Below, in pieces: positions 14,263 through 46,847 of a DNA stretch of 64,000 nt. Location: contig NZ_CP009244.1 in assembly GCF_001941425.1 (NCBI RefSeq), positions 1,612,001 to 1,676,000 of the forward strand, written 5' to 3'. Origin of the DNA: Corynebacterium ammoniagenes DSM 20306 (GTDB lineage: Bacteria > Actinomycetota > Actinomycetes > Mycobacteriales > Mycobacteriaceae). Position numbers and translations under genes: made by a program. Position 1 is the stretch's first letter, and each line of letters starts with the position of its first letter. Below the pieces are notes generated by a model. That model searched no databases. It had not been told where the DNA came from and saw only the letters and a list, made by a program, of their open reading frames with translations.

Positions 14263-14339
14263 GCCCTTGTAGCCCAATTGGCAGAGGCAACGGATTCAAA
14301 ACCCGTCCAGTGTGAGTTCGAGTCTCACCAGGGGCACCA
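14263..14339 (+). tRNA. tRNA-Leu (anticodon CAA), class I shape, CCA encoded
   Basis: A full cloverleaf can be drawn: acceptor GCCCTTG/CAGGGGC (one G-U), D-arm GCC...GGC, anticodon stem ACGGA/CCCGT with loop TTCAAAA, T-arm GTGAG-TTCGAGT-CTCAC, and a genomic CCA at 14337-14339. The anticodon at 14297-14299 is CAA, reading UUG (Leu). The variable loop is only 5 nt, whereas bacterial leucine tRNAs normally have a long variable arm, and pair 31-39 is an A-C mismatch. The identity is therefore taken from the anticodon only. Confidence 0.85.
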
Positions 14340-43247: not shown

Positions 43248-43341
43248 TAGCCCAGGTGACAGAAGTCGGCGGACTTTCATTCGAACACCTTGAATCAATA
43301 GCTAGTGAGCCCCAGCAGTATTGCTGTACACTCGACTGCTC

Positions 43342-43443
43342 GAAGGGGAGTAGTTCACACCCATACTTTTATGGCGATGAGTGGTCGACATACTGGCGTT
43401 AAGCCCGGCCACCAGCTCACGTATATGAGCGAACGAGACCTTC
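43342..43443 (+). promoter_or_regulatory. yybP-ykoY-type manganese riboswitch ahead of the CDF gene
   Basis: The leader keeps the strongly conserved blocks of this riboswitch class: 5' GAAGGGGAGTAG (43342-43353), an internal segment with GTCGACAT (43384-43391) and GCCCGG (43403-43408), and 3' ACGAGACCTTC (43433-43443). GAAGG and CCTTC pair to close helix P1. The class binds Mn2+ and turns on exporters when Mn is high. Immediately downstream AAGGTCTC (43493-43500) is a perfect complement of GAGACCTT (43435-43442) and contains the Shine-Dalgarno AAGG for the ATG at 43504. This gives a translational switch: P1 formation frees the ribosome site. Confidence 0.85.
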
Positions 43444-43503
43444 TGCCCGTATTCCTCGTGTCGGGTAGAACTCCCCGGCACCCGTTTTGCACAAGGTCTC
43501 ATC

Positions 43504-44418
43504 ATGATTACCCATGCAAAAGAGCAGAAGATCATCGAACGCTTCTTGCTCTTATCCATCGCTGCCGCCATTGCCACCATCGCGTTAAAAGGTGCCGCGG
43601 CCTATCTCACCGGTTCCGTCGGCTTTTTATCCGACGCCCTGGAATCCGTCGTCAACCTTGTTGCCGCCATCGTCGCGCTCATTGCCACTCGCATTGCTGC
43701 CAAGCCTGCCGATGCCAACCACAACTTCGGCCACGGCAAATCCGAATACGTCTCTGCGCTTGTCGAAGGCGCCATGATTTTCGTCGCCGCCGGCATGATC
43801 ATCTACACCGCGGTCGAACGCCTTTTCAATCCCGCTCCCCTGGACGAAGTCGGCATTGGCCTCGGCCTATCCCTCCTGGCCACGCTACTCAACCTCGGCG
43901 TCGGGCTTGCTCTTGTTAAAGCCGGCAAAAAGTACCGTTCCGCAGCACTCAACGCCGATGGGCACCATTTGCTTACCGATGTCTACACCACCATCGGAGT
44001 CATCCTCGGCATTGCCGCCGTCGCGCTCACCGGTTGGGTATGGCTGGACCCGGTCATTGCACTTCTCGTTGGCATCAACATTTTGTGGACTGGCTACTCC
44101 CTGCTCAAATCCTCATTAAGCAACCTGATCAGCGAAGCCCTACCCTCCGAAGACGTCGATATCCTCACGCAAGTATTCGCCGAGTTTGAATCCCAGCACA
44201 ACGTCACCATTGATGAGCCTAAAACCGTCGCGTCTGGTCGCAACCGCCTCATTTACTGCATCATGACCGTCCCCGGCGACTGGTCCGTCGACTACGCACA
44301 CCAGCTTGCCGATGACCTCGAAGCCGCCATCCTTAAAGCGCTACCCAATTCGCAGTCGATGATTCATACCGAGCCCCGCAGACTGAGCAACGATTTACAG
44401 CATCGAATCCCCAATTAG
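43504..44418 (+). CDS. Cation diffusion facilitator (CDF) metal exporter, likely Mn2+-controlled
   Basis: A 304-residue CDF transporter with six helices and a C-terminal cytoplasmic metal-sensing domain. Family marks: G-S-V-G-F-L-S-D-A-L-E-S (Asp44, helix 2), the H-N-F-G-H-G-K-S-E-Y loop (residues 73-82) and A-D-G-H-H-L-L-T-D-V-Y-T-T (HxxxD, helix 5). HxxxD in helix 5 is typical of Zn/Co exporters, while the leader is a Mn2+ riboswitch; the riboswitch is the stronger clue to the physiological metal, and mixed specificity is possible. ATG at 43504 has AAGG 7 nt upstream. Its stop overlaps the convergent META-gene stop by 4 nt. Confidence 0.92.
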   Translation: MITHAKEQKIIERFLLLSIAAAIATIALKGAAAYLTGSVGFLSDALESVVNLVAAIVALIATRIAAKPADANHNFGHGKSEYVSALVEGAMIFVAAGMIIYTAVERLFNPAPLDEVGIGLGLSLLATLLNLGVGLALVKAGKKYRSAALNADGHHLLTDVYTTIGVILGIAAVALTGWVWLDPVIALLVGINILWTGYSLLKSSLSNLISEALPSEDVDILTQVFAEFESQHNVTIDEPKTVASGRNRLIYCIMTVPGDWSVDYAHQLADDLEAAILKALPNSQSMIHTEPRRLSNDLQHRIPN

Positions 44419-46774: not shown

Positions 46775-46847
46775 TACCCCGTACGGGATTTGAACCCGTG
46801 TTACCGCCGTGAGAGGGCGGCGTCCTAGGCCGCTAGACGAACGGGGC
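46775..46847 (-). tRNA. tRNA-Glu (anticodon CTC)
   Basis: On the minus strand: acceptor GCCCCGT/ACGGGGT, D-arm with G-G-C-C-T-A, anticodon stem CCGCC/GGCGG with loop CTCTCAC (anticodon CTC, reading GAG), T-arm ACGGG-TTCAAAT-CCCGT. The CCA is not encoded; the discriminator base is A. Confidence 0.95.

Follow-up and report, generated by a model that had tools for sequence, protein, structure and literature searches.

Described manganese riboswitches

The yybP-ykoY riboswitch family, its Mn2+ ligand, switching through helix P1, control at the ribosome site, and corynebacterial members of the family are already known. In E. coli mntP, the ribosome-binding site is inaccessible without Mn, so that control acts at the ribosome site (available text of PMC11647493). 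In L. lactis, helix P1.1 of the yybP-ykoY element has been identified by experiment as an Mn-stabilized switch helix. It competes with a downstream helix, and P1 suppresses an overlapping terminator hairpin, which makes this a transcriptional switch (available text of PMC11087558).

Annotations with older Rfam models placed three yybP-ykoY leaders in C. glutamicum, with scores of 43.7, 49.1, and 49.9 bits. The 49.1-bit leader belongs to terC (cg2157) and was seen in RNA-seq. Such annotations also placed yybP-ykoY elements in two strains of C. pseudotuberculosis, at 40.9 and 49.2 bits (PMC3890552, PMC3917459, and PMC3890534, in their available parts). These annotations concern the same family and genus as the element described here, and in the same parts of the papers terC is the only target gene named and CDF genes are not mentioned. 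A 2013 regulon survey of taxa that include the Corynebacteriaceae counts yybP-ykoY among the widely distributed motifs (PMC3766115, available part). No CDF gene was found as a yybP-ykoY target in the literature searched, some of it available in part. The founding papers (PMC4376352 and PMC4703321) lie outside that literature, and we make no claim of priority.

The element resembles the E. coli mntP and alx switches (RF00080) in its core strands, the order of its helices, L1, most of L3, and its place before an exporter gene. It differs from them in having a CDF gene as its target and in scoring below the Rfam 15 cut-off. As in L. lactis, P1 would be the switching helix in competition with a downstream helix; here, however, it is the ribosome site that lies within the competing helix, and the leader showed no terminator.

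Locus and element map

The window is the whole 64,000-nt stretch of Corynebacterium ammoniagenes DSM 20306 that was analyzed. A first-pass annotation had described 43342..43503 as a manganese riboswitch with a translational switch, and its strings and coordinates proved correct to the base on the window sequence. The element of 102 nt (43342-43443) begins with GAAGGGGAGTAG and ends with ACGAGACCTTC (43433-43443). It contains GGGGAGTAG at 43345-43353. GAAGG (43342-43346) and CCTTC (43439-43443) close P1, as had been proposed. The 8-nt complement that the annotation reported is also there: GAGACCTT (43435-43442) and AAGGTCTC (43493-43500) are exact reverse complements of each other. AAGG (43493-43496), inside AAGGTCTC, serves the ATG at 43504 as ribosome site, in agreement with the proposed Shine-Dalgarno sequence. 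The anti-P1 partner ends 3 nt ahead of this ATG. The window also contains two tRNA genes, at 46775-46847 (-) and 14263-14336 (+), found in the Rfam scan.

The features of the locus are as follows.

43327..43332, +: likely -10 hexamer TACACT, from the recurrence of TANNNT ahead of P1
43342..43443, +: probable yybP-ykoY (Mn2+) riboswitch aptamer; 110 bits with R1 (the Corynebacterium model described below) and 16.7 bits with RF00080, under the cut-off of the latter
43342..43346, +: P1 5' strand GAAGG; pairs with 43439-43443, with covariation
43347..43352, +: internal loop L1, 5' strand (GGAGUA); every base identical in 97/97 aligned elements, including those of E. coli
43353..43356, +: P1.2 5' strand (GUUC); pairs with 43431-43434, with two-sided changes in 4/4 pairs
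43361..43374, +: P2 hairpin, 43361-43365 with 43370-43374; predicted fold, with different sequences in aligned relatives as read by eye; outside R1
43382..43411, +: P3, 43382-43386 with 43407-43411; helices 3 and 4 covary
43387-43394, +: loop L3 GACAUACU; first part conserved, aligned to AACAUACU of mntP
43395-43397 with 43403-43405, +: P3 inner stem; covariation (helices 3 and 4)
43415..43430, +: P4 hairpin, 43415-43419 with 43426-43430; helix 5, two-sided changes in 5/5 pairs
43435..43442, +: putative switching strand GAGACCUU (L1/P1 3' strand); partner is the P1 5' strand (ON) or 43493-43500 (OFF), from the exact 8-nt complement and the fold
43444..43446, +: UGC, extension of the OFF helix with GCA 43489-43491; minimum-free-energy fold
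43458..43481, +: predicted linker hairpin within the OFF helix, GUGUCGGG (43458-43465) with CCCGGCAC (43474-43481)
43493..43500, +: AAGGUCUC, which pairs with the switching strand and includes the ribosome-binding site (AAGG, 43493-43496); from the sequence, the linker pairing tests, and the fold
43504..44418, +: CDF-family cation exporter of 304 aa with A-site E47 N51 / H155 D159; PF01545 E 4e-46, YiiP alignment

The -10 hexamer was placed by comparison. In 30/34 CDF leaders, against 4.5 expected, the stretch from 22 to 6 nt ahead of P1 contains a TANNNT hexamer. This test took 34 of the 38 CDF leaders and left out L082, L083, L095, and L174. A scan of the window leader with the strict E. coli consensus matched no promoter. 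Because TANNNT is placed shortly before P1, the transcript probably begins at P1, with a predicted start at about 43339-43341, just ahead of the helix.

Homology to established manganese switches

Exporter leaders were gathered by searching for the CDF protein in 201 Corynebacterium genomes, and 191 of these gave matches. R1 is a covariance model made from 21 Corynebacterium CDF leaders, including that of the window. The training leaders were chosen by the presence of GGGGAGTAG and CGA[GT]ACCTTC, and matches of R1 to those 21 are by construction. The training alignment contains 22 pairs, with 98.3% of cells paired. P2 was left out of R1 because MAFFT put this hairpin out of register.

R1 matches the window at 43337-43447 with 110 bits, the score of a training member, and the next-best match in the window has 12.2 bits. 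It is the sole match across the source genome at E<=10. In the 15.5 kb of E. coli DNA searched, R1 finds the mntP leader (45.9 bits, E 2e-11) and the alx leader (22.0 bits, E 1e-4). These matches end 113 nt before mntP and 79 nt before alx.

Within Corynebacterium, R1 matches 55 places in 50/201 genomes. Forty-six of the 50 have a single place and four have two or three. G116 has three matches, and G130 has two, one of them weak. R1 matches were found in 134/251 genomes of the family and 44/396 genomes of the phylum; the genome sets of the genus, family, and phylum searches overlap. The element lies upstream of 37/73 Corynebacterium CDF loci at >=50% identity, a count that omits three genes split in two pieces (G018, G061, and G187:C2). 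No match was found upstream of the other 36/73 at the threshold applied, and the filters of this search discard weak matches. Sixteen of the 37 CDF-linked matches fall outside the R1 training set, some of them nearly identical to leaders within it. The element was not seen in the 260 nt upstream of five CDF relatives at 64-65% identity (L021, L022, L023, L025, and L027). These five upstream stretches resemble one another and may carry another control site.

The MntP, TerC, GDT1, Na/Ca-exchanger, and CDF families include Mn exporters. There are 18 genus matches beyond the CDF-linked ones. Seventeen lie upstream of genes for MntP (10), TerC (4), or Na/Ca exchangers (3). These identities come from reading the proteins, with 3/17 confirmed by Pfam, and none of the 17 is in the R1 training set. 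The 18th (G130:C153, 57 nt, 22.9 bits) is outside this tally. Pfam searches of ten proteins downstream of R1 matches gave MntP (2), GDT1 (2), TerC (2), and Na/Ca exchangers (4). The same aptamer was found ahead of genes for CDF, MntP, TerC, GDT1, and Na/Ca-exchanger proteins (L153, L154, L162, L164, L107, L113, L126, L144, and L147).

The main evidence for the proposed membership is this retrieval, by a model trained on CDF leaders, of the leaders of other manganese-exporter families, experimentally established ones included. The identification as a yybP-ykoY (Mn2+) riboswitch made in the first-pass annotation is supported by homology to proven switches and by covariation, and Mn2+ is the ligand that we infer.

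The current Rfam model

The annotation had proposed an RF00080 scan of this locus as a check, with a high score as support. The scan of 43290-43560 gave 16.7 bits, and the gathering score is 45. Over the whole window, RF00080 (Rfam 15) found nothing at the gathering score, and the site is also absent from the list of the whole-genome search. Two matches elsewhere in the genome (L001 and L002; 13.3 and 12.5 bits) fall within or overlap coding sequence and were rejected as chance-like. In Corynebacterium, 0/101 genomes have a match at E<=0.001. The cut-off is reached by 0/20 R1-matched loci, and 2/20 loci of a second, overlapping set reach E<=1.

RF00080 was also run on 14 control genomes. It has matches in three (E. 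coli, B. subtilis, and C. vibrioides), above the cut-off in two. The E. coli mntP switch (L149:1962-2075) scores 41.6 bits, below the model's own cut-off of 45, with its 3' GAGACC strand unaligned. The E. coli alx leader (L150:4372-4501) is not listed at E<=0.1. The annotation had held that the lack of a significant RF00080 hit would refute the riboswitch. That lack is real here. We judge it uninformative because the same model scores E. coli mntP below threshold, and RF00080 was set aside as a membership test, since a proven switch falls under its cut-off too. The current model is narrow, though it works for some members. Some members of the family may go unannotated with RF00080, especially among relatives of the window element.

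Aptamer structure and conservation

Covariation and conservation were assessed in 97 elements (95 distinct), which are 95 of 97 loci fetched with R1 and the two E. coli leaders. The 95 loci are a minority of the places found in the family-wide R1 search. The alignment is fitted to R1 and so is biased towards the model, with 97.3% of cells paired and two-sided changes in 19/22 pairs against 10.5 in shuffles. Its covariation score of 0.459 compares with 0.156 for shuffled alignments and no more than 0.088 for slid ones. Each of the five helices counted, namely P1, P1.2, P3 (two parts), and P4, has support from covariation.

P1 has two-sided changes in 3/5 pairs, with 99.8% of cells paired in the 95 distinct sequences. 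It is constant in the R1 training set; outside it, GC changes to AU or UA, and AU to GC, in step. The two L1 strands (GGGGAGUA and GAGAC) are conserved, with GGGGAGTA in 97/97 elements and GAGAC in 96/97. The first part of L3 is strongly conserved, and a loose L3 pattern occurs in 89/97 elements. The aptamer core has 35 columns at >=90% across the 97 elements and is nearly invariant down to E. coli mntP. One element (L095:15-135) has GATACC in place of the near-invariant GAGACC, an exact fit to its own downstream GGTATC. L094 has the same GGTATC and an intact GAGACC.

The switch helix

The metal-free fold of 43337-43515 has a free energy of -59.6 kcal/mol. In it, 43435-43442 pairs with 43493-43500 with probabilities of 0.84-0.998, and P1 has a probability of about 0. 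A fold in which P1 and P1.2 are imposed loses 8.4 kcal/mol of stability, and its long OFF helix is broken. The AA of AAGG is then open, and GGU (43495-43497) is for the most part held in a small local hairpin, with unpaired probabilities of 0.07-0.17; Mn2+ is unscored by the folding model. Our confidence in the switch reading is slightly lowered because this forced ON fold leaves the ribosome site partly closed.

The best fold changes with the 3' end of the transcript. Among the lengths folded, P1 is present when the transcript ends at 43447 or 43460, and the OFF helix when it ends at 43500 or 43505. For ends at 43470-43496 the best fold contains neither of the two. Two other pairings in these folds were set aside. 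CUGCUC/GAGUAG, a 5' pairing in the free fold, uses a first strand most of which is missing from a transcript that starts at about 43340. GGGGAGU/ACUCCCC appears in folds ending at 43480-43496, and close relatives have ACTCTCCC at that place. A linker hairpin read by eye in the leader of one close relative, L008, is GCUUGGG/CCCGAGC.

The complementarity was compared with shuffled linkers. Of 5000 linker shuffles that kept AAGG in place, 0.32% pair equally well with GAGACCTT. Among dinucleotide shuffles of the linker, 0/500 match the pairing of the 15-nt GAGACCTTCTGCCCG and 1/300 that of its first 13 nt. In 26/34 CDF leaders, pairing between the switching strand and the linker reaches p<=0.05, often in a different register (CCUUCGG/CCGAAGG). 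For this test, 35 of the 38 CDF leaders were taken (L079, L082, and L083 omitted), and L174 was dropped for lack of a recognized frame. Start codons followed a simple rule and are probably too far downstream for several leaders. In the larger set, pairing reaches p<=0.05 in 64/97 elements and stays above p 0.05 in 33/97. The sequences in both counts are related, so that neither is a set of independent tests. The E. coli alx leader passes the pairing test (0/300 shuffles), whereas mntP fails it (p 0.92).

The annotation had named covariation that breaks this pairing in related genomes as a refutation. Overall, no such pattern was found. The exceptions are mntP, the 33 elements above p 0.05, and L008, which has an A-C mismatch within the 8-nt helix and is the same leader as L096 (p 0.23). 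The alignment of six leaders used for close comparison was read by eye only; in it, L009 is misaligned in the linker and L005 lacks its first three bases. Homology, covariation, and the recurrent complementarity support the proposed translational switch between P1 and a helix over the ribosome site, with a direction that is the likely one.

A T-run stands right after the partner of the switching strand in 16/97 elements (L101, L102, L126, L132, L140, L141, L142, L146, and L166, among others). These leaders suggest a terminator version of the same switch.

Exporter protein and metal

The CDF protein matches PF01545 with 157.7 bits (E 4e-46) and the dimerization domain PF16916 with 39 bits, both above cut-off. 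Its closest named relative found is a protein of Corynebacterium sp. J010B-136, with 79% identity. MntE, which we take to belong to the ND-DD clade 1, is its best NCBIfam profile (NF052621), but the score of 250.3 bits is half the equivalog cut-off of 500 bits. By alignment to YiiP, the full A-site is E47-N51 / H155-D159, or EN-HD. E and N are kept in 61/61 pattern-matched rows from the 81 loci scanned, with duplicates included and unmatched loci dropped.

HxxxD has been taken as a mark of Zn- and Fe/Zn-CDFs, and DxxxD as a mark of Mn-CDFs (available text of PMC1868760). The bacterial Mn CDF clade 1 is ND-DD (PMC5703985). The EN-HD site of the protein matches that of CDF clade 6, which is tied mainly to Mn and Fe2+, also to Zn and Cd, and whose site is possibly non-specific for metal (PMC5703985). 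The HxxxD signature noted in the first-pass annotation is present. Its reading as Zn/Co is incomplete, HxxxD being only the TM5 half of the EN-HD site, and was dropped after the full-site alignment. The annotation had also concluded that the riboswitch redefines the likely metal. It rather narrows what the protein itself suggests than overturns it, as EN-HD is compatible with Mn. The evidence from the exporter and from the RNA appears compatible with Mn, and Fe is possible, because the EN-HD clade has been published mainly for Mn and Fe2+.

Proposed mechanism and alternatives

We consider it very likely that about 43340-43503 forms an Mn2+ riboswitch of the yybP-ykoY family and switches on the translation of the CDF exporter, whose metal is most likely Mn2+ and possibly also Fe2+. 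Transcription from about 43340 would make the P1 5' strand first. Without Mn2+, GAGACCUU (43435-43442) would pair with AAGGUCUC (43493-43500), aided by UGC/GCA and the linker hairpin. This OFF helix would bury the ribosome site, and little exporter would be made. With Mn2+, the metal would dock the P1/L1 and P3/L3 legs and keep P1 (GAAGG/CCUUC) closed. The 3' P1 strand would then be occupied and the ribosome site freed from the long helix.

The same aptamer and ligand could act mainly through premature Rho-dependent termination, with hiding of the ribosome site as the trigger and not the whole effect. We regard this as the strongest of the alternatives, though unlikely. Rho-dependent termination accompanies the riboswitch in E. 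coli mntP, and the same source mentions an FMN riboswitch of C. glutamicum that involves Rho (PMC11647493, available text). The 16/97 related leaders with a T-run after the partner of the P1 3' strand indicate that transcriptional versions probably exist. Against this alternative, the switching strand here has the ribosome site itself as its OFF partner. Control of translation is favored because no intrinsic terminator or terminator-like site was found in the window leader.

It is improbable that the RNA has the yybP-ykoY fold with a ligand or exported ion that is not chiefly Mn2+ (for example, Fe2+, Zn2+, Cd2+, or Co2+). The links of the EN-HD clade to Fe2+, Zn, and Cd besides Mn would allow it, and we weight this alternative slightly higher in view of the description of the EN-HD site as possibly non-specific (PMC5703985). 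L3 is also GACAUACU here and AACAUACU in mntP. On the other side, the core is nearly invariant to E. coli mntP, and the further target genes belong to the MntP, TerC, GDT1, and Na/Ca-exchanger families. A chance resemblance without any structured element has next to no probability. The subthreshold RF00080 score in the window and the two chance-like scores elsewhere in the genome would fit it. It is contradicted by the R1 matches to mntP and alx, by the element at 37/73 close CDF relatives, and by the covariation. The Mn2+-responsive translational switch is the reading that we retain.

Significance for Corynebacterium and the riboswitch family

The window leader looks like a divergent, ordinary but solid member of the manganese riboswitch family and not a new kind. 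It leaves the accepted view of the switch mechanism unchanged. We think the following proposal likely as a whole. In much of Corynebacterium, EN-HD CDF exporters would export Mn2+ under riboswitch control and form a yybP-ykoY target class that we did not find in print. In addition, an actinobacterial branch of the family, which current Rfam misses at the loci tested, would employ a single P1 strand as a plug-in before exporters of five Pfam families. This strand would pair with the ribosome site of some genes and, at others, with a strand that resembles a terminator. The element thus gives a testable metal assignment for a CDF exporter group that is common in Corynebacterium, and it marks a branch of a known riboswitch family that, at the loci tested, the present Rfam model leaves unannotated.
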